Part shown: one piece after another, positions 36,476 to 42,988 of the stretch
Layout of the letters: the number at the start of each line of letters is the position of its first letter
Position numbering within the stretch: the first letter of the stretch is position 1
Assembly: GCA_009773165.1 (NCBI GenBank)
Contig: WOUZ01000001.1
Coordinates: forward strand, 620,001-684,000
DNA length: 64,000 nt
Reading direction: 5' to 3'
DNA from: Bacteroidota bacterium
GTDB taxonomy: Bacteria; Bacteroidota; Bacteroidia; Bacteroidales; F082
Program-made: the position numbers and the translations under genes
Notes under the pieces: model-generated
What the model was told of the DNA's origin: nothing
What the model saw: the letters and a program-made list of their open reading frames with translations, nothing else
Databases searched by the model: none

Positions 36476-36507
36476 GATTTTTTTGTTAAAACGAGGAGTA
36501 AATATAC

Positions 36508-36546
36508 AAAAAAACAACCCCTTGAAAAGGTTGTTTTCAAGGGGTT
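36508..36546 (-). terminator. Original tRNA-Leu terminator, now detached from its tRNA
   Basis: On the reverse strand a 13-bp stem (36534-36546 with 36516-36528) is followed by GTTTTTTT. It sits just downstream of the short tRNA 3' copy at 36552. Before the element inserted, it would have ended tRNA-Leu transcription directly. Confidence 0.75.
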
Positions 36547-36551
36547 TCATC

Positions 36552-36572
36552 GTACCCGGAGCCGGGATTGAA
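36552..36572. repeat. attL: duplicated tRNA-Leu 3' end
   Basis: Matches 20 of 21 positions of the T-arm/acceptor end of tRNA-Leu at 42904-42924 (one C/T difference at 36569). Only the 3' end of the tRNA is present, so this is an integration scar and not a gene. Confidence 0.88.
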
Positions 36573-36591
36573 ATCTGCATTTTTGCAATGT

Positions 36592-36611
36592 TCTAAAACA
36601 CTCTAAAACAC
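36592..36611. repeat. Two tandem 10-bp repeats next to attL
   Basis: TCTAAAACAC occurs twice in direct succession, 24 bases inside the element from attL. Position suggests a recombination-protein site; this is inference. Confidence 0.45.
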
Positions 36612-36694
36612 GCACTATTATTGAGAAAACAAATATAATCAATATGTTAACACAAAAATAAATATTGCAAATAATTTTAAAATATTTCGTTTGG

Positions 36695-36713
36695 TGGTGC
36701 AACGGTGGTGCAA
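36695..36713. repeat. Left arm-type site (TGGTGCAACGGTGGTGCAA)
   Basis: A 19-bp sequence with two GGTGCAA units, repeated exactly and in the same orientation at 42830-42848 near the other end. Such paired inner sites flanking att cores are usual for integrase arm binding. This copy overlaps the region where the integrase promoter would be controlled. Confidence 0.65.
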
Positions 36714-36719
36714 GTGTTG

Positions 36720-36727
36720 TATATTTG
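36720..36727 (+). promoter_or_regulatory. TAnnTTTG promoter element of the integrase
   Basis: TATATTTG 29 bases before the integrase ATG, followed by GCACAA. The ATTTGCACAA here recurs at 42414-42423 before the last gene of the element and contains an inverted arm-type half-site (TTGCAC). Confidence 0.55.
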
Positions 36728-36755
36728 CACAACCGATATTTAAAAAACTAAAATT

Positions 36756-38084
36756 ATGGCATCAGTTAGAGCGTTTATAAGAGTATCAACAAAAAAGGTT
36801 ATTTCGGCAAATGTTCGTTTTCGTTTGACAGACGGAAGAAAAATTCAATTATGGCATAAGAGCGAAATAGAGATAAACCCGGCTCTTTGGGATACAGGCA
36901 AACAGGCAATAAAAGCAAAAGTGATTTTTGATGCAGTCGAAAGAGCAAAATTTAATAAGGCCGTCAATGAGCGTAAAAATTTATTGATTGAGATTTATAA
37001 TGCTGAACATGATAAATCATTGTTAACGTCTGAATGGATGGAGTTGGAAATTGACAAATCCCTAAATCCGGGAAAGTACCTCCCGGCCGAAATTGCGCCC
37101 CAAACGTTTTTTGAGTCATTTGATGATTTTCTGGAAAAGCATAAATTATCGGATGTTCGTAAAAAGAATTACAAGGTTATTAAAAGAGCTTTGCAGCGTT
37201 TTGAATTGTATGTATCAAAAACCAAAAAGACAGCGTATGCTTTAACCTTTGAAAACATCACTTCAGCAACTTTGAGAGAGTTTGAAATGTTTGTCGTACA
37301 GGAACACGAACTTTTTATAAAACACCCGGAAATTTATAAAGAAATCCCGGAGGTAAGGACACCACAGAAAAGAGGCCAAAATACGATCAATGATATTTTT
37401 ACAAAATTTCGGACGTTTTACTTATGGTCAATTGATGCAGGCAAAACGATAAACAACCCTTTTAAAGGGTTCAAGGTCGAAGAGTGTGTTTATGGCACTC
37501 CCTTTTACATCACTATTGAAGAAAGAAACACCCTATACAATTGCGACCTTTCACACCTCCCGGAGTTGGCAATTCAAAGAGATATTTTTGTATTTCAATG
37601 TTTAATTGGTTGCAGAATTGGAGACCTTTACAAAATGAAAGCTAACAGCGTAATGAATGGAGCCATTGAGTATATACCACGAAAGACGAAAGACGGCCGT
37701 CCGGTTACTGTCAGAGTGCCACTGAATGCCACAGCAAAAGAGATTTTGAACCGTTACCCGGCAAATGAGAATGAAAAATTGTTGCCTTTTATTCCAGAGC
37801 AACAATATAACTATGCGATAAAAGATGCTTTTAAAGCGGCCGGGATTACAAGAATGGTTACTATTATAAACCCGACAACCCGACAAGAAGAGAAACGTCC
37901 GATAAATGAAATAGTATCCAGTCATACAGCCCGGAAATCGTTTGTCGGGAACCTCTATAAGCAAGTTAAAGACCCTAATTTGGTAGGTGTATTGTCAGGC
38001 CATAAGGAAGGGAGTAAAGCCTTTGCACGTTACCGGGAAATAGACGAACAAATGAAATTAGACCTTGTGAACCTTTTAAACTAA
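36756..38084 (+). CDS. int: Tyrosine recombinase (integrase) of the element
   Basis: A 442-aa integrase of the Bacteroidota type. Residues 1-90 form the arm-DNA-binding domain (VRFRLTDGRKIQLWHKS), about 115-225 the SAM-like core-binding domain, and 230-442 the catalytic domain. Active-site residues are visible: R287 (IGCRIGDLYKM), H390 and R393 (SSHTARKSF), H416 (LSGHKEG) and nucleophile Y426 (FARYREI). It would recombine the tRNA-Leu 3' end with a copy on the excised circle. It is the first gene inside attL, pointing inward, with the next gene only 6 bases after its stop. Confidence 0.94.
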   Translation: MASVRAFIRVSTKKVISANVRFRLTDGRKIQLWHKSEIEINPALWDTGKQAIKAKVIFDAVERAKFNKAVNERKNLLIEIYNAEHDKSLLTSEWMELEIDKSLNPGKYLPAEIAPQTFFESFDDFLEKHKLSDVRKKNYKVIKRALQRFELYVSKTKKTAYALTFENITSATLREFEMFVVQEHELFIKHPEIYKEIPEVRTPQKRGQNTINDIFTKFRTFYLWSIDAGKTINNPFKGFKVEECVYGTPFYITIEERNTLYNCDLSHLPELAIQRDIFVFQCLIGCRIGDLYKMKANSVMNGAIEYIPRKTKDGRPVTVRVPLNATAKEILNRYPANENEKLLPFIPEQQYNYAIKDAFKAAGITRMVTIINPTTRQEEKRPINEIVSSHTARKSFVGNLYKQVKDPNLVGVLSGHKEGSKAFARYREIDEQMKLDLVNLLN

Positions 38085-38090
38085 GTCAAG

Positions 38091-38864
38091 ATGAGAACGA
38101 AAATAATTGAAAGTGATTTTTCGAAAACAAGTGTTGATTTTGACCTTTACAAAGAAGGATTAAAACATTTGGGAAAAATAAGACTGGAATTTGATTCTGA
38201 AATGAGAGAGTTTTACGAAAAGAGAAAAGCAGACTATAATCTGAACGGGGAAAAATCTCAGTTGTTAGGCCAAAGCTATGACAAACCATTTCGCCCTAAT
38301 CTTGAAAACACTTATACACAGAATTTCAAAGAGTATAGTCAGGACAAACCATTTGCTTTAGAAAAAGCCTTTATTCAATACGAAATTGAACGAATTGAAA
38401 GCATAAAACGTACTATAAAAGATTATTTAAAAGATGACTTTGAATCTCCAGAAATGGACACAATAGACGCATACATTGATTTTTTGAACGTTAAAGAGGC
38501 CGGAAAACAAAAGAAATCTTTTGCCGGAAATGATGAAAAGTACAAAGATTATTATCCTGTATTGACGAAAATATATGAATTATGTGTTAATGACAAATCT
38601 CAAAAACCTGTATTTGATTGTAAATTAATTGAATTTTTAGAAGCTATCGAAACCTCAAATTTTACGAATATCAACATAAAAGTAATTTATAAAATGCAAC
38701 ACCTGACTTATAAACTTTCTAATTTGCTCGGGGAGGCATGGTATAGTGATGTTACTCAAAATATGAATTGGAATAAAAAAAGGTGTTCTGGATTAACTCA
38801 CGAATCACTTTATCTTTTTCAAACAAAATTGGATAGGATCTTACCTCCATTGGGTAAAGAATGA
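38091..38864 (+). CDS. Unknown protein co-transcribed with the integrase
   Basis: A 257-aa soluble, charged and mostly helical protein (EGLKHLGKIRLEFDSEMREF, AFIQYEIERIESIKRTIKDYL), with no signal peptide or membrane segment. I recognise no family or catalytic motif. It begins 6 bases after the integrase stop and is followed by a strong terminator, so integrase and this protein form one transcript. A role with the integrase, or a cargo function such as host or phage interference, is possible; neither is shown by the sequence. Confidence 0.75.
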   Translation: MRTKIIESDFSKTSVDFDLYKEGLKHLGKIRLEFDSEMREFYEKRKADYNLNGEKSQLLGQSYDKPFRPNLENTYTQNFKEYSQDKPFALEKAFIQYEIERIESIKRTIKDYLKDDFESPEMDTIDAYIDFLNVKEAGKQKKSFAGNDEKYKDYYPVLTKIYELCVNDKSQKPVFDCKLIEFLEAIETSNFTNINIKVIYKMQHLTYKLSNLLGEAWYSDVTQNMNWNKKRCSGLTHESLYLFQTKLDRILPPLGKE

Positions 38865-38927
38865 ATTTAAAGTAAATCATTGCATAATGATATACTAACC
38901 ACAAAAAAAATAGATTCATTTATTTTA

Positions 38928-38964
38928 GTGAATTGATACACAGTGTATTAATTCACTTTTTTTT
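38928..38964 (+). terminator. Terminator of the integrase operon
   Basis: A 13-bp stem with one G-T pair (GTGAATTGATACA at 38928-38940, TGTATTAATTCAC at 38944-38956) has a 3-base loop and is followed by eight T. Confidence 0.85.
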
Positions 38965-39077
38965 GTGCTTTACCACAAAGAAACCACAAAGAAACGGCAA
39001 TAGTTTTGCGATATGCTAAACAAGCCTTTGCAGTAGCTACCAAAGGCAGAAAAGCAAAAAATTAAAAATCTTGCAAA

Positions 39078-39380
39078 ATGAATATCAATGAATTACTTGA
39101 AAGCAAAGCAAAAATAAGTATTACCGCTACAGGCGAAGACTTGTTAATGTTTGCGGACTATCTACTTGAAAAGAAAACAAGAGCCTTAGAAGAAGCTGTA
39201 ATTTCTGACAAGGCAGAAACCTATCCAAGCCCGAAACAAGTTGCTGAAATCTTAGGCGTTGACCTGTCAACCCTTTGGAGATGGACACGAAAAAACTATT
39301 TAGTCCCGGTTGAAATCGGAGGCAAACGCAGGTACAAAATGAGTGATGTAAAAGCCTTACTAAATGGTGGCAAAAGGTAA
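39078..39380 (+). CDS. Excisionase-like HTH protein
   Basis: A 100-aa protein with a winged-helix MerR/excisionase-type domain (HTH_17) in its C-terminal half: PSPKQVAEILGVDLSTLWRWTRKNYLVPVEIGGKRRYKMSDVKALL. Such proteins bend att DNA for excision or repress the integrase. Here it follows the integrase terminator and starts a second transcript; a pair of ACCACAAAGAA repeats lies just upstream. The N-terminal 45 residues are helical and of unknown role. Confidence 0.83.
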   Translation: MNINELLESKAKISITATGEDLLMFADYLLEKKTRALEEAVISDKAETYPSPKQVAEILGVDLSTLWRWTRKNYLVPVEIGGKRRYKMSDVKALLNGGKR

Positions 39381-39455
39381 GATGAAGGCAAAAAAAAGCC
39401 CGGTAATCGGGCTAAATATTGCTGAAGACGAACATTATGTAAACATCACAAAGAT

Positions 39456-39953
39456 ATGAAAAAACCATACAGAAAGAGCGAAGCATTAAAGATTCTGGAA
39501 AAGATGGATTTTGAAAACCTTGTATCTCAATATCCCAACACTCCAACGAAGTACTTACCAAAGCCTACATATAGCGACAATGATGCAAACAGCCTGACTA
39601 AAGCCATAATTAGATTTATCTGGTTAAAAAATGGACAGGCCGAAAGGGTGAATTCAATCGGAAAACAGATTGACCGGAGAGAGACGGTAACCGACATTTG
39701 CGGCCGTACGAGACAGGTAGGCTCTTTGCAATGGATTAGAAGCACCGGAACCACAGGAACAGCCGATATATCAGCAACCATTGCCGGACGTTCAGTAAAG
39801 ATCGAAGTCAAATGTTCAGCAACTGGTGATCGATATCAGAGCGAAGCGCAAAAAGCCTATGAGCGTTCTATACTTAAGGCCGGAGGCCTGTATTTCATTG
39901 CTACCGACTTTGAACAGTTTTATAATTGGTACAATCAAAACTTTGGGAGATGA
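39456..39953 (+). CDS. VRR-NUC / PD-(D/E)XK-like nuclease
   Basis: A 165-aa protein. The segment STGTTGTADISATIAGRSVKIEVKCS (about 97-122) has the order Gly-Thr-Ala-Asp...Glu-Val-Lys expected of the PD-(D/E)XK fold as found in VRR-NUC phage nucleases, and QKAYERSILKAGGLYFIA gives the downstream Gln/Ala-Gly-Gly helix-strand. Such enzymes resolve branched DNA or process replication intermediates, which would suit a replicating element. Its stop overlaps the next ATG (ATGA), so the pair is translationally coupled. Confidence 0.78.
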   Translation: MKKPYRKSEALKILEKMDFENLVSQYPNTPTKYLPKPTYSDNDANSLTKAIIRFIWLKNGQAERVNSIGKQIDRRETVTDICGRTRQVGSLQWIRSTGTTGTADISATIAGRSVKIEVKCSATGDRYQSEAQKAYERSILKAGGLYFIATDFEQFYNWYNQNFGR

Positions 39954-40666
39954 AAGAAAACGACTACAAAGAAAGTGATTACCTCAACTTTCCTATTCAG
40001 ATGGTTGAAGGATTAATCCCTGACAGGCATAGAAATAGTCCTAAAAGAATTTATGATGAAATTGCTTATTATGCAATCTACCGCCAAAGTCGAAAATCAA
40101 AAGAATGGACTGAAATCAAAAGAATAAAAGATGCGATAAATTTTTTTGATTTTTCGATTAGAGATGAATCTCTCGCATATTCAGATGGGAAAAGATTATA
40201 TGAAAGATATCCATTAAACAGTCCACGTACTGGAATTTCTAAACAACTGTTTTTTGAATTTTCCAAAAACGACAAGACGGATTTTGAGATAGCAACTCTA
40301 ACAGCGTTTTTAGCCCTCAAGAGTATTGTAGGAGATAAACCATATATGCGTATCAGCAACCTATTTATGCTATCCAGAATGGACGGAAAAGTTAAGTCAG
40401 TGAAGGATAAAAAAGAACTTAGTTCAGCGGTTAGAAAATACGCAACAGAGTATTATGCAAAAAGACTAAGAAATGAATTATTTGACAATTGGGGTCTGGT
40501 TTACGTTCAATCGAGAGGCGTTTGTATTTCATTCACATTAACACTAAATGAGCTGCAAACAGCTGCTTTAAAAGAGACTGTTAAATCCAAAGACAGATTT
40601 AGAAGTAAGCAGATGAGAGAGGCTAAAGAAGAGGCCGTAAAACAGGTTAATGCTAAACAGAAATAG
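39950..40666 (+). CDS. Probable replication initiator or winged-helix DNA-binding protein
   Basis: A 238-aa soluble protein, start chosen at the ATGA overlap with the nuclease gene. The middle (FEIATLTAFLALKSIVGDKPYMRISNLFMLSRMDGKVKSV) and the following AVRKYATEYYAKRLRNEL resemble helix-strand patterns of replication-initiator winged helices, and the C-terminus is strongly basic. I cannot prove the family. Its main support as an initiator is position: the iteron and 13-mer array begins 10 bases after its stop, the usual place for a plasmid origin near its rep gene. Confidence 0.55.
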   Translation: MKENDYKESDYLNFPIQMVEGLIPDRHRNSPKRIYDEIAYYAIYRQSRKSKEWTEIKRIKDAINFFDFSIRDESLAYSDGKRLYERYPLNSPRTGISKQLFFEFSKNDKTDFEIATLTAFLALKSIVGDKPYMRISNLFMLSRMDGKVKSVKDKKELSSAVRKYATEYYAKRLRNELFDNWGLVYVQSRGVCISFTLTLNELQTAALKETVKSKDRFRSKQMREAKEEAVKQVNAKQK

Positions 40667-40675
40667 TATGAAAAC

Positions 40676-40842
40676 ATCACGGACTTATCACGACCTTATC
40701 ACGACCTTATCACGGACTATAATAAGGGGATTTTGGAAGGTGTTGTTTTTTTTGTTTAGAAATGATCTTAAAAAAATCACGGACTATAATAATGTCTTTA
40801 AATAATGTCTATAAATAATATCTTTAAAAAATGTATATAATG
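40676..40842. other. Candidate replication origin: iterons plus four 13-mers
   Basis: Four 11-bp units follow each other without gaps from 40676 to 40719 (ATCACGGACTT, ATCACGACCTT, ATCACGACCTT, ATCACGGACTA). The last is part of a 17-bp ATCACGGACTATAATAA that recurs exactly at 40776-40792. From 40791 to 40842 there are four phased 13-mers (AATGTCTTTAAAT, AATGTCTATAAAT, AATATCTTTAAAA, AATGTATATAATG). Iterons beside AT-rich 13-mers is the layout of iteron plasmid origins, where the 13-mers open first. A G-rich stretch and long T run follow, with two AATTTTTTGAA repeats at 40873-40897. Confidence 0.65.
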
Positions 40843-40922
40843 GGGGTGTGGGGGGAAGCTCTTTTTTTTTTTAATTTTTTGAATTCAATTTTTTGAAAAT
40901 AACATTTAACTACAAAAACACA

Positions 40923-41240
40923 ATGGGACAAAAAAAAGGAAATACAGGAAATCCGGCCGGACGGCCAAAGGGTTCAAAAAACAAAGTAAGCACTGAATTA
41001 AAAACATGGGTTCAAATGCTTATTACATCGAACACAGAGCAACTGGAAAAAGACCTCCAGAGCTTGGAGCCTAACCAGAAATGGGTAATAATTGAAAAAT
41101 TATTGCAATTCGTTATTCCCAAAGCGACAATACATCTGGAAACGAAAGACACGACACCACCACGACCGACACCGCCCGCAAGGATATTAAGACGGGATGA
41201 GTTGAAAGAATATTTTGAGCAACTTGAAAAGGAATATTAA
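40923..41240 (+). CDS. DUF5681-like protein with AT-hook-like N-terminus
   Basis: A 105-aa protein. The start GNTGNPAGRPKGSKNKV is the hallmark of DUF5681, common in phages and mobile elements; its GRPKG core resembles an AT-hook, so minor-groove DNA binding is likely. The rest is helical with a proline-rich segment (PPRPTPPARI) near the end. The ATG at 40923 directly precedes the motif. It is the first gene after the candidate origin. Confidence 0.72.
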   Translation: MGQKKGNTGNPAGRPKGSKNKVSTELKTWVQMLITSNTEQLEKDLQSLEPNQKWVIIEKLLQFVIPKATIHLETKDTTPPRPTPPARILRRDELKEYFEQLEKEY

Positions 41241-41284
41241 CACGCTAAAAATTGGCGAAATTATAAACTTAAAACTTTACAAAA

Positions 41285-41455
41285 ATGGACACGAAAGAAA
41301 TTGAAAAAATCAGAAATGACTTTGAAAAAAAAGCCATAATTGAAGACCTTAAAACGAAACAAAAGGAAATTGAGAAAAAACTTTATGAGCTTCAAAATGA
41401 AGTACCGGAAAAGTTACAAGATTTTTTTAAAAATGGTTCTAAAGAAAAATTTTAA
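41285..41455 (+). CDS. Small coiled-coil protein, 56 aa
   Basis: An ATG-to-TAA frame of 56 codons with strongly coding composition: a charged coiled coil (KKAIIEDLKTKQKEIEKKLY) throughout. It sits 44 bases after the DUF5681 gene and 11 bases before the next, so it fills the operon neatly. No family is recognised. Confidence 0.65.
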   Translation: MDTKEIEKIRNDFEKKAIIEDLKTKQKEIEKKLYELQNEVPEKLQDFFKNGSKEKF

Positions 41456-41466
41456 ACATCCCACAA

Positions 41467-42066
41467 ATGAAAAAAGTAAAAATTAGTGTAGATCAATGGA
41501 AATTGAGACGTGAGACGGATGCAATGCCACTTGCTTTAAAAGATTGCCACACGTTAAAAAGCTATTTAAATGATGTTGGTCTTAAGCTGACAACCGAAAC
41601 CCTCACAGATGCAGCCGGAACGTGTTCATTGATTGAATCTCAAATTAGGGAAAGCGTTCAATCCGATATTGCCAATATTAAAAATCCGATTCTCATTGCT
41701 TCGCTGACAGCCGGAACGAATGCTGCCATAGCTGAACTGAAGCAAAAAATACAGCGTTTGGATGCTATTCACGCAGTGAAAGAATTCATTGAGCTTATTG
41801 AGGTAATTGACGAACAGCCTCGTTTAGTGCTGAATTGGAGAAATATCATTGAAGAAAGAGCTTCATATTACATCACAGAGCCTAAAGAAATCGCTATCTA
41901 TGAAGCACAACTCAAAATCATTGAGGCCGTCAATGAGCTTGCAAAGGTTAAAGGGACTAAAATTCCATTAAATAACCTGGTCTTTCAAATGATGAAATTT
42001 AATGATTTTGAAGCAATACCGGAGCCGTTGAATTATTCACTTGTTGCTGTAGATAAAGAAAGTTAA
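41467..42066 (+). CDS. Unknown protein of the element, 199 aa
   Basis: A soluble, mainly helical protein (SIAELKQKIQRL-type amphipathic helices; EFIELIEVIDEQPRLVLNW). There are no membrane segments, signal peptide or recognised catalytic motif. It belongs to the forward transcript behind the DUF5681 and coiled-coil genes. I cannot assign a function. Confidence 0.7.
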   Translation: MKKVKISVDQWKLRRETDAMPLALKDCHTLKSYLNDVGLKLTTETLTDAAGTCSLIESQIRESVQSDIANIKNPILIASLTAGTNAAIAELKQKIQRLDAIHAVKEFIELIEVIDEQPRLVLNWRNIIEERASYYITEPKEIAIYEAQLKIIEAVNELAKVKGTKIPLNNLVFQMMKFNDFEAIPEPLNYSLVAVDKES

Positions 42067-42162
42067 TTTATTAAAGTCTAAGGACGTTGAAAGAGGGAAA
42101 AGTTTGACTCCTGAAAATTTAGGAACCGGACTTTTTTTCTCTTTTTTTTTCTTTAACCTGTA

Positions 42163-42256
42163 AATCCAAAATTGGATTATCGTCATAGGTAAGCTCAAAA
42201 TTGAGCCGTCAATAGGTAAGCTGAATTTTTAGCCGTCAATCCGTCCAAATCTGGAC
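42163..42256. repeat. Array of four short palindromes in tandem repeats
   Basis: Four inverted repeats occur in 94 bases: AATCCAAAATTGGATT (42163), GCTCAAAATTGAGC (42193), GCTGAATTTTTAGC (42220) and GTCCAAATCTGGAC (42243). The second and third lie in a 27-bp direct repeat with the shared spacer CGTCAATAGGTAA. This is in the 381-base gap 42067-42447, which has no gene. It may bind a regulator or a partition or replication protein. Confidence 0.5.
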
Positions 42257-42447
42257 AGGTCTCAGCACATTTGCTTAGTGCTTAAATATCAAATAGTTAT
42301 ACGATTCACCAAAATTGGGGAGTCCTCAAAGTGTTTGTAATACAATCATTTTCAATAAGTTACGACAATAATAATTAAAAGTCAATAGTACAATTTCAAA
42401 ATCTTTGTTTCACATTTGCACAATTATTAATCTAAAAACTATCCATC

Positions 42448-42816
42448 ATGCAAAATCAAATCGCAAACAGTGAAGCACACATTGATCTATTCACAAAGAT
42501 TAGACATGAGTATTATTATGGCTGTCAATCAGAGCAACAAATCTATTATCATCACATAGAACTGTTAAGCAGTTTTTTGTCAAAGATCAATGACTTACAG
42601 GCCTTAGATTTGAAGTTGATTCAAAATGTTTTTATTTTCTACTTAATGAATAATCCAAATAATCCAAATGAGGCAATTCAGAAAACTAAGGTTTTGTCTG
42701 AACTGGAAAAGCTGACAGATTATGCTTCTGTTATTGATGCTTATGGAGACGATCTACCATTATGGAACGAATTTTATAATGATTTGGCCAATGGTCTGGA
42801 AGAGAAAATAAGTTGA
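42448..42816 (+). CDS. Unknown protein at the right end of the element
   Basis: A 122-aa acidic, helical protein (LFTKIRHEYYYGCQSEQQIYY, IDAYGDDLPLWNEFYNDL). No family is recognised. It has its own upstream region with ATTTGCACAA at 42414, as before the integrase, and sits next to the right arm site, so it is transcribed separately from the gene before it. The position inside attR is typical of accessory or cargo genes. Confidence 0.68.
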   Translation: MQNQIANSEAHIDLFTKIRHEYYYGCQSEQQIYYHHIELLSSFLSKINDLQALDLKLIQNVFIFYLMNNPNNPNEAIQKTKVLSELEKLTDYASVIDAYGDDLPLWNEFYNDLANGLEEKIS

Positions 42817-42829
42817 AAATTTATTGAAT

Positions 42830-42848
42830 TGGTGCAACGGTGGTGCAA
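42830..42848. repeat. Right arm-type site (TGGTGCAACGGTGGTGCAA)
   Basis: Identical to 36695-36713 and in the same orientation, 56 bases inside the right att core. Confidence 0.65.
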
Positions 42849-42861
42849 ATCCATAAAAACC

Positions 42862-42899
42862 AAAAACGCAACTATTGATATTCAACTAGTTGCGTTTTT
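42862..42899. terminator. Bidirectional terminator at the right end, replacing the tRNA-Leu terminator
   Basis: A 13-bp stem (AAAAACGCAACTA at 42862-42874 with TAGTTGCGTTTTT at 42887-42899) has an inner TTGA/TCAA pair and A/T runs on both sides. It ends tRNA-Leu transcription from the right and the element's last gene from the left. Confidence 0.82.
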
Positions 42900-42903
42900 T
42901 TAT

Positions 42904-42924
42904 GTACCCGGAGCCGGGATCGAA
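42904..42924. repeat. attR: tRNA-Leu 3' end
   Basis: The att core lies inside the intact tRNA; insertion preserved the tRNA sequence. Confidence 0.88.
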
Positions 42925-42988
42925 CCGGCACGAGTGTAACCTCACTGGTTTTTGAGACCAGCGCGTCTACCAATTCCGCCATCCGGGC
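42905..42988 (-). tRNA. tRNA-Leu (anticodon CAA)
   Basis: On the reverse strand the 84-nt cloverleaf has acceptor stem GCCCGGA/TCCGGGT (one G-T pair at the end), discriminator A, D-arm GGCGGAATTGGTAGACGC, anticodon stem CTGGT/ACCAG with loop CTCAAAA giving anticodon CAA, a class II variable arm (TGAG/CTCG) and T-arm GCCGG-TTCGATC-CCGGC. CCA is not encoded. It decodes UUG. The 3' end is the integration site of the element. Confidence 0.96.

Follow-up and report, generated by a model that had tools for sequence, protein, structure and literature searches.

A 6.35-kb integrative element at a tRNA-Leu gene, probably a minimal phage satellite of Bacteroidota

Iteron plasmids and lambda-type origins place the initiator gene beside iterons and an AT-rich region with 13-mers, and integrative and mobilizable elements (IMEs) of the NBU1 type are small integrating elements of Bacteroidota that carry a tyrosine integrase. 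As described in the sources cited here, phage-inducible chromosomal islands (PICIs) carry int, a regulator, rep followed by the origin and sometimes terS, use a specific att site, measure about 15 kb and are induced by, and packaged in, a helper phage (PMC6092414); the phage-inducible chromosomal minimalist islands (PICMIs) of Vibrionaceae are minimalist satellites with int, alpA and a primase that sit beside fis, such as the 6110-bp PICMI115 (PMC10803314); capsid-forming PICIs (cf-PICIs) and the Streptomyces satellites Mulch and Flayer encode their own major capsid, with cf-PICIs also having a portal, protease and terminase of their own and borrowing tails (PMC10690885); NBU1 is named as an IME (PMC11389934); and a further source treats marine archaeal elements (PMC12324425). 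In the literature on satellites and PICIs we found no phage-satellite family described for Bacteroidota, which does not prove absence because subscription papers were mostly outside the scope of that search. Here we describe an element at 36552–42924 of a 64-kb window, which is the whole stretch of DNA analysed (positions 620,001 to 684,000 of contig WOUZ01000001.1 from the Bacteroidota bacterium assembly GCA_009773165.1). We are highly confident that it is an integrative element with its own likely replicon, and we consider it probable, with more reserve, that it is an integrated phage satellite and the minimal member of a family in Bacteroidota.

Integration of the element is well supported. 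It lies between two direct repeats, attL at 36552–36572 and attR at 42904–42924 (both on the forward strand, as are all element features given below), which are spaced by 6352 bp, have the sequence GTACCCGGAGCCGGGAT(T/C)GAA and are identical at 20 of 21 positions, with 17 bp exact. A search allowing up to two mismatches returned two matches in the window and none in 100 shuffles, which upheld the repeats that a first-pass annotation of this DNA had placed at tRNA-Leu. The right copy falls inside the 3′ end of the integration target, an intact tRNA-Leu(CAA) gene (42904–42988, reverse strand). The annotation had also called for a comparison with empty sites. Regions from six relatives, five of the same genus and one of the same family, show the same tRNA-Leu and CoA-transferase neighbours, and the element was seen in none of them. 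The att core is present as the tRNA copy only in G641, G642 and G644, and G638 has the tRNA with no exact match to the core. Beside attL, a host terminator (36500–36551) resembles the one directly after the tRNA-Leu end in the empty site of G642 (L036/L067), and the G+C content is 34.9% in the element versus 39.7% in the rest of the window. A second att core was seen approximately 0.35–0.44 kb from tRNA-Leu in G653 (L063, around 6105/6460) and G645 (L064, around 36/476), possibly the scars of other insertions.

Inside both element ends we found an exact 19-bp direct repeat that the annotation had not listed (36695–36713 and 42830–42848; 0 in 100 shuffles). Its left copy is immediately upstream of a TAnnTTTG motif (36720), which precedes int and which we take to be promoter-like, and the repeat may be an arm site for Int and Xis. 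The same boundaries bear on the alternative of a static genomic island, which would not transfer and would be kept for some host benefit, with orf2, orf8 and orf9 as cargo. About half of the focal genes have no assigned function and mobility is predicted from sequence, both of which favour such an island; the absence of the element at the same tRNA in every one of the six regions and the range of tRNAs, covering nine amino acids, at which related elements sit (see below) argue against it, and we regard it as very improbable.

Between the att repeats, nine genes lie on one strand, and the arrangement int–orf2–HTH–VRR-type nuclease–rep–origin–DUF5681–orf8 is that of a family described below. The tyrosine integrase (36756–38084, 442 aa; Pfam and PHROGs searched) matches Phage_int_SAM_5 (3e-9) and Phage_integrase (5.5e-7), and is 37% identical to the integrase of the related locus L018 (332 columns) and 35% identical to that of L014 (321 columns). 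A MerR/excisionase-like helix-turn-helix (HTH) regulator of 100 aa (39078–39380) matches HTH_17 (2e-11) and phrog_66, "excisionase and transcriptional regulator" (7.6e-9). The VRR-NUC-type nuclease (39456–39953, 165 aa) shows the motif GTxGTxDxxA...GRxVxIEVK...SEAQ in alignments; it had no match in Pfam or NCBIfam and a weak endonuclease match in PHROGs (0.003), and a four-sequence profile searched against the PDB reached the solved nuclease 4qbo (E 0.008) and, at E 0.16, 4qbl, a chain that bears the name VRR-NUC. The gene behind the origin encodes a 105-aa DUF5681 protein (40923–41240; Pfam 5e-8).

The replicon of the element centres on a 238-aa protein (39950–40666), a probable replication initiator that was named rep because of its conserved pairing with an origin-like region. 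It had no credible match in Pfam, PHROGs or NCBIfam, and its sequence profile matched nothing in the PDB. The AlphaFold model (predicted local distance difference test score, pLDDT, 90) can be read as mostly helical with a winged-helix-like C-terminal half; its fold matched nothing in the PDB at E≤0.001, and the top three matches in BFVD (E 0.007–0.05, none at E≤0.001) carry names of HTH proteins and "replication initiator protein". Four 11-bp iterons with ATCACG at 40676, 40687, 40698 and 40709 (40676–40714) begin 10 bp past the rep stop. A motif search located a first origin box, CACGGACTATAATAA (40711–40725), and 67 bp further an identical second box (40778–40792), which runs into AT-rich 13-bp tandem units (40788–40839) that form a possible unwinding region. 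This anatomy of 11-bp iterons, paired CACGRMCTATAATAA-type boxes and AT-rich 13-mers, for which the focal array gave P = 0.005 (200 shuffles), suggests that the element replicates. A compact integrative element in tRNA-Leu with an integrase, an excisionase-like protein, a nuclease, a probable initiator and a plasmid-like origin array is what the first-pass annotation had described, and that description is supported; the two boxes are additional to it.

The focal element belongs to a family that seems to be undescribed and lies towards the lower end of its size range. At E≤0.001, a query with the single protein recovered rep relatives from 8 of 247 genomes in the order, and a six-sequence alignment recovered them from 12 of 393 (own genome counted in both). 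A nuclease search across the phylum gave relatives in 4 of 395 genomes, again including its own. A genome-contig scan for rep gave 23 loci, 22 from Bacteroidota isolates or metagenome-assembled genomes (MAGs) and one from a Candidatus Kapaibacterium MAG; the carriers include Flavobacterium sasangense DSM 21067 (element L078:6863-12669, with DUF5681), Maribacter zhoushanensis SA7, Cyclobacterium xiamenense CGMCC 1.12432 and Leeuwenhoekiella aequorea LMG 22550. The comparison set comprised 27 chromosomal loci (the focal one and 26 others) and four viral contigs, 31 loci in all. Dropped before the gene counts were L015 and L088 (rep with a primase-like gene; treated as a single contig given their equal map and length), L016, L017, L019–L021, L059, L060 and L062 (rep-like genes outside an int–HTH–nuclease neighbourhood, or a longer rep), L026 and L028 (found via the nuclease) and L095 (rep truncated at the contig end). 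By eye, a CHC2-type primase-like gene stands beside or near the HTH gene in L026 and L015, as if replication modules had been swapped.

Among the chromosomal loci, rep is present in 27/27 by selection, the HTH gene in 26, int in 24 and the nuclease in 19. A tRNA gene occurs in 17 of the 28 loci examined for att sites, and 16 of these 17 have a 13–48 bp repeat at the tRNA that brackets int and rep; repeats of 13–15 bp (7 of the 16) are weaker evidence than the longer ones. The annotation had named relatives lacking a tRNA duplication as a finding that would speak against it, and such relatives are not the rule. The tRNA-sited relatives cover tRNAs for nine amino acids, their repeat-bounded elements range from 4.95 to 13.6 kb, and L074, like the focal element, sits at the end of tRNA-Leu(CAA). 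The focal genome itself holds a second, previously unlisted element about 100 kb to the left (L014:4417-16409, G000:C1), which is 12.0 kb long, lies at tRNA-Thr and carries a tape-measure gene, phrog_5377 and two rep-like genes. Two more integrases in the same genome, C26:14404-14916 and C35:6012-6527, are weakly related. Elsewhere, a second integrase-like gene next to a tRNA (L075:18428-19654, by eye) suggests tandem elements, and a Type IIG restriction-methyltransferase found by PADLOC near rep and TerS in L087 (9546-14426) is possible defence cargo.

The origin anatomy recurs behind rep in these relatives. Over the 300 bp behind rep in 25 of the 27 chromosomal loci (L061 was left out and L085 is too short), mean periodicity peaked at 13 bp with a score of 17.8 of 26 and echoes at 26 and 39, compared with 12.3 inside rep. 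A lag of 13 was the best of nine lags in 17/25 loci and reached P≤0.05 against 200 shuffles in 16/25; the other nine gave 0.055 (L074), 0.08 (L079) and 0.12–0.95 (L089, L093, L018, L014, L086, L092 and L084). The repeats of L014 sit behind its second rep-like gene and those of L018 are longer. Fifteen of the 25 loci contain the box motif, which is paired in 12 of them, with a spacing of 64–85 bp in 11 and of 118 bp in L077; the arrangement is reversed in L077 and L091. As the box expression was written after the 25 loci had been viewed, the 15/25 is descriptive and the independent test is a scan of viral contigs. The pattern CACGACCTATAN{52,82}CACGACCTATA, which uses DNA only and represents the commoner CACGACC form (the focal form, CACGGAC, falls outside it), matched four of 2.9 million viral contigs, and all four have this rep just upstream, which ties the box pair and rep together. 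A later scan with the rep alignment returned the same four contigs; scans of the viral contigs with the single nuclease and rep proteins returned no relative.

What follows the rep–origin module differs among members and includes packaging-type genes. A gene for the small terminase subunit (TerS) is present in 5/27 chromosomal loci (L018, L027, L087, L089 and L093) and DUF5681 in 8/27 (the focal locus, L058, L073, L075, L078, L080, L081 and L086). At E≤0.001 the two never occur together among the 31 loci (DUF5681 in 9, TerS in 8; P = 0.04, kinship ignored). Four chromosomal loci (L014, L018, L075 and L080) contain an open tape-measure gene, that of L014 being 33% identical over 80% to tape measures of Porphyromonas phages and having no second copy in its own genome; L091 and L094 encode a large PHROG "virion structural protein". 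Hidden Markov models (HMMs) built from the viral contigs detected portal and the large terminase subunit (TerL) in 0/27 chromosomal loci. We also tallied families among 121 proteins from 17 repeat-bounded elements (5 focal proteins and 116 of 141 unlabelled open reading frames (ORFs); short ORFs, the L075 tape measure and an integrase-like gene were omitted). The 25 commonest PHROG and Pfam families, beyond which lie 16 PHROG and 10 Pfam families, include no portal, TerL, major capsid or lysis family.

The viral contigs extend this series. L119 (16.7 kb), L121 (18.5 kb) and L122 (17.0 kb) combine rep and the origin with portal, a MuF-type head protein, TerS, TerL, a tape measure and an integrase, which in L122 is a fragment at the contig end; L120 (14.4 kb) carries MuF and tape-measure genes plus two for DUF5681, and lacks portal and TerL. 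All four are classed as linear in IMG/VR and may therefore be fragments, and an IMG/VR listing does not show packaging. Phage_capsid, the one capsid family searched, was found in 0/4, and the unassigned ORFs behind portal in L119, L121 and L122 are 183 aa at most. Focal orf8 (41467–42066, 199 aa) is distantly related to a protein that stands directly behind the origin, ahead of portal, in both L119 and L121 (hhalign probability 91.9, E 6.8e-7), and an HMM built without orf8 recovers it at E 1.4e-4; the L119 protein as a single query did not recover it, and the orf8-type profile gave a chance-level match only (E 0.5) among solved structures. Together with rep and the origin, orf8 ties the minimal element to the portal-bearing members.

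These genes bear on a second alternative, namely that all loci are remnants of one prophage family, the small ones having decayed from larger phages and kept int and the replication genes. Portal, terminase and tape measure in the larger members would fit decay, as would the split of the tape measure into two ORFs in L121 (12501-16035) and L122 (9452-13435), which could also reflect sequencing error. Against this, the focal genes show open frames in a tight arrangement, elements at tRNAs for nine amino acids retain the core together with repeat pairs, TerS or DUF5681 recurs behind rep in distant genera, Phage_capsid was detected in 0/4 of the largest members, and a search of 50,697 phage records returned no phage carrying this rep. 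Because no major capsid protein was recognised in the relatives and tRNA duplications are the rule, we favour satellites over decayed phages and regard the prophage-remnant explanation as improbable. The first-pass annotation had stated that it would count against a new kind of element if the genes matched those of a known phage family whose virion genes lie elsewhere; among the relatives there are indeed carriers of virion genes, none of which has a recognised major capsid protein.

That annotation had left open whether this was a new replicating satellite or an integrative plasmid. The latter would replicate by itself once excised and be moved by co-resident conjugation or natural transformation rather than by phage. 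Its rep and iteron origin do resemble those of plasmids, a similar rep stands beside a primase-like gene in L015, and no phage structural or packaging gene was recognised in the focal element: none of its nine proteins had a credible match to virion, lysis, relaxase or conjugation families in Pfam or PHROGs, nor did the eight searched in NCBIfam (orf7 left out), in agreement with what had first been noted. However, relaxase and mobilisation families, found in 0/9 focal proteins, are also absent from the 25 commonest families of the 121 element proteins, relatives carry TerS, tape measure, portal and TerL, and there is no rep relative among 72,556 plasmids. As the same core precedes TerS, tape measure, or portal with terminase in relatives and no mobilisation gene was found, we favour a phage satellite and consider an integrative plasmid unlikely. 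The relatives tip the earlier choice towards a satellite and show the element to be one of a family.

Several observations count against a phage satellite. No rep relative is present in the phage or the plasmid records searched, and 11 of the 27 chromosomal loci, a count that the plasmid explanation can also claim, are without any gene for TerS, DUF5681, a tape measure or a virion structural protein at E≤0.001 (among them L076, L079 and L085, which are short contigs). In L076, a TerS-like gene (PHROG 5e-8; Pfam 4e-4, under its cut-off) lies beside a weak DUF5681 match (0.026), a possible exception to the mutual exclusion. TerS (E≤0.001), capsid-remodelling and primase genes were not recognised in the focal element, where cos and pac sites were not searched for, and no Terminase_6N, the only terminase family tried, was found in the host genome, so that no resident helper was found. 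The remaining objections concern DUF5681. In phage ctMEh928, the TerL start is overlapped by a protein resembling the DUF5681 protein of L086, but the DUF5681 family profile did not recover this copy. The closer relative, from Bacteroides phage BF1-TP2, is surrounded by small genes in the vicinity of the integrase, and a Hafnia phage relative lies near tRNA genes, neither being beside a terminase. Eight further DUF5681 places were seen in other genomes, four of which, all in G843, are without a recognised int or rep, and the AlphaFold model of the protein is poor (pLDDT 69).

We therefore rejected DUF5681 as a proven TerS on the BF1-TP2 and Hafnia contexts, the G843 copies, the profile miss and the poor model, and regard it by its position as a candidate TerS-like packaging factor, the weakest step in our interpretation. 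By eye, DUF5681 is paired with different replication-type genes, HUH-like or without assignment, in L111, L112 and L113, and may thus be common to several small element types. In L114, a gene behind a weak DUF5681 match that looked by eye like a terminase was not confirmed by two TerL profiles.

For the phage satellite that we favour, a cycle can be proposed in which the integrase and the excisionase-like HTH protein would excise a 6.35-kb circle between the 21-bp att copies, and the circle would reinsert into the tRNA-Leu 3′ end; the repeats, the intact tRNA and the empty sites are observed, and the enzymatic activities are predicted. Judging from the anatomy and the rep–origin linkage in relatives, Rep would bind downstream of its own gene, at the 11-bp iterons and the CACG-boxes; the 13-mers would melt, and host or helper polymerases would copy the circle. 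The DUF5681 protein, standing where some relatives have TerS, could then steer a helper phage terminase to the satellite DNA, which would leave in helper particles. The nuclease and orf8 might serve replication or processing and interaction with the helper, which is a guess. Packaging of the focal element is inferred from its relatives: as larger members have packaging and tail-length genes and no recognised shell gene, the element probably travels in the particles of other viruses.

A broader proposal, which we put forward tentatively and rate slightly below an even chance, is that one rep with its box/13-mer origin module drives a ladder of Bacteroidota satellites, from approximately 5 kb (int, rep, and TerS or DUF5681) to 17 kb (portal, MuF, terminase and tape measure, without a shell protein). 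Since the family is defined by rep and an origin signature that can be searched as a pattern, its satellites and possible helpers can be found across a major phylum, and the relatives in named isolates make induction and packaging testable.

The remaining features of the element can be stated briefly. Orf2 (38091–38864, 257 aa) occupies an int–orf2–HTH slot that recurs in relatives, and the genes in that slot are too divergent for homology to be called. Orf7 (41285–41455, 56 aa) is known as an ORF only, and orf9 (42448–42816, 122 aa) lies near the right end; orf2, orf7, orf8 and orf9 had no credible family match in Pfam or PHROGs, nor, for all except orf7, in NCBIfam. Between orf8 and orf9, two 27-bp direct repeats that are 85% alike (42185–42238) form a possible regulatory or recognition site. 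PADLOC gave no match among six focal proteins.

Compared with described systems, the focal element differs from prophages in that no capsid, portal, tail or lysis gene was found among its proteins (Pfam and PHROGs), and from NBU1-type IMEs in that no relaxase or mobilisation protein was found (Pfam, PHROGs and NCBIfam). It resembles iteron plasmids and lambda-type origins in that the initiator gene adjoins iterons and AT-rich 13-mers, whereas its rep has no sequence relative in the solved structures or plasmid records searched. Set against the satellites of the cited sources, it shares with PICIs a specific att site and integrase, a small HTH regulator, rep directly followed by the origin, as judged from the sequence, and the lack of structural or lytic genes (9/9 proteins). 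This last feature fails in L014, L018, L075, L080 and L119–L122, which have a tape measure, and in L091 and L094, which have the virion structural protein. Unlike PICIs, the focal element has no primase family match (9/9 proteins in Pfam and PHROGs), and it has no TerS, which some PICIs and 5 of the 27 chromosomal loci do have. Where PICIs have a divergent master repressor (Stl/Rpr) or an AlpA/MerR-type regulator, the focal element has an HTH_17/MerR-like gene, while no divergently placed repressor gene was recognised. It further differs in its rep, which has no detectable relative, in the VRR-type nuclease, in DUF5681 instead of TerS, in its host phylum, Bacteroidota, and in its size of 6.35 kb against about 15 kb, with the family at 4.95–13.6 kb. 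Because primase, recognised master repressor and size do not match, we do not class it as a PICI. As in PICMIs, about 6 kb hold int, a small regulator, a replication gene and genes without assignment, with no capsid remodelling; PICMIs have a primase and the fis site, whereas the focal element has rep with an iteron-type origin, a tRNA site and a possible packaging factor.

The largest members of the family differ from cf-PICIs and from Mulch and Flayer in having a tape measure and no recognised capsid protein (Phage_capsid only, 0/4 viral contigs), and the focal element has no capsid, portal, protease or terminase match. The likeness to both groups is that the largest family members also have portal and both terminase subunits, and Mulch and Flayer lack a primase too. 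If the ladder proposed above is correct, the large members would take capsid and tail parts from a helper but supply portal, motor and tail ruler in place of the helper's, which reverses the roles seen in capsid-forming PICIs; members with portal, terminase and tape measure that package themselves into borrowed shells would then represent a new division of virion-making labour.

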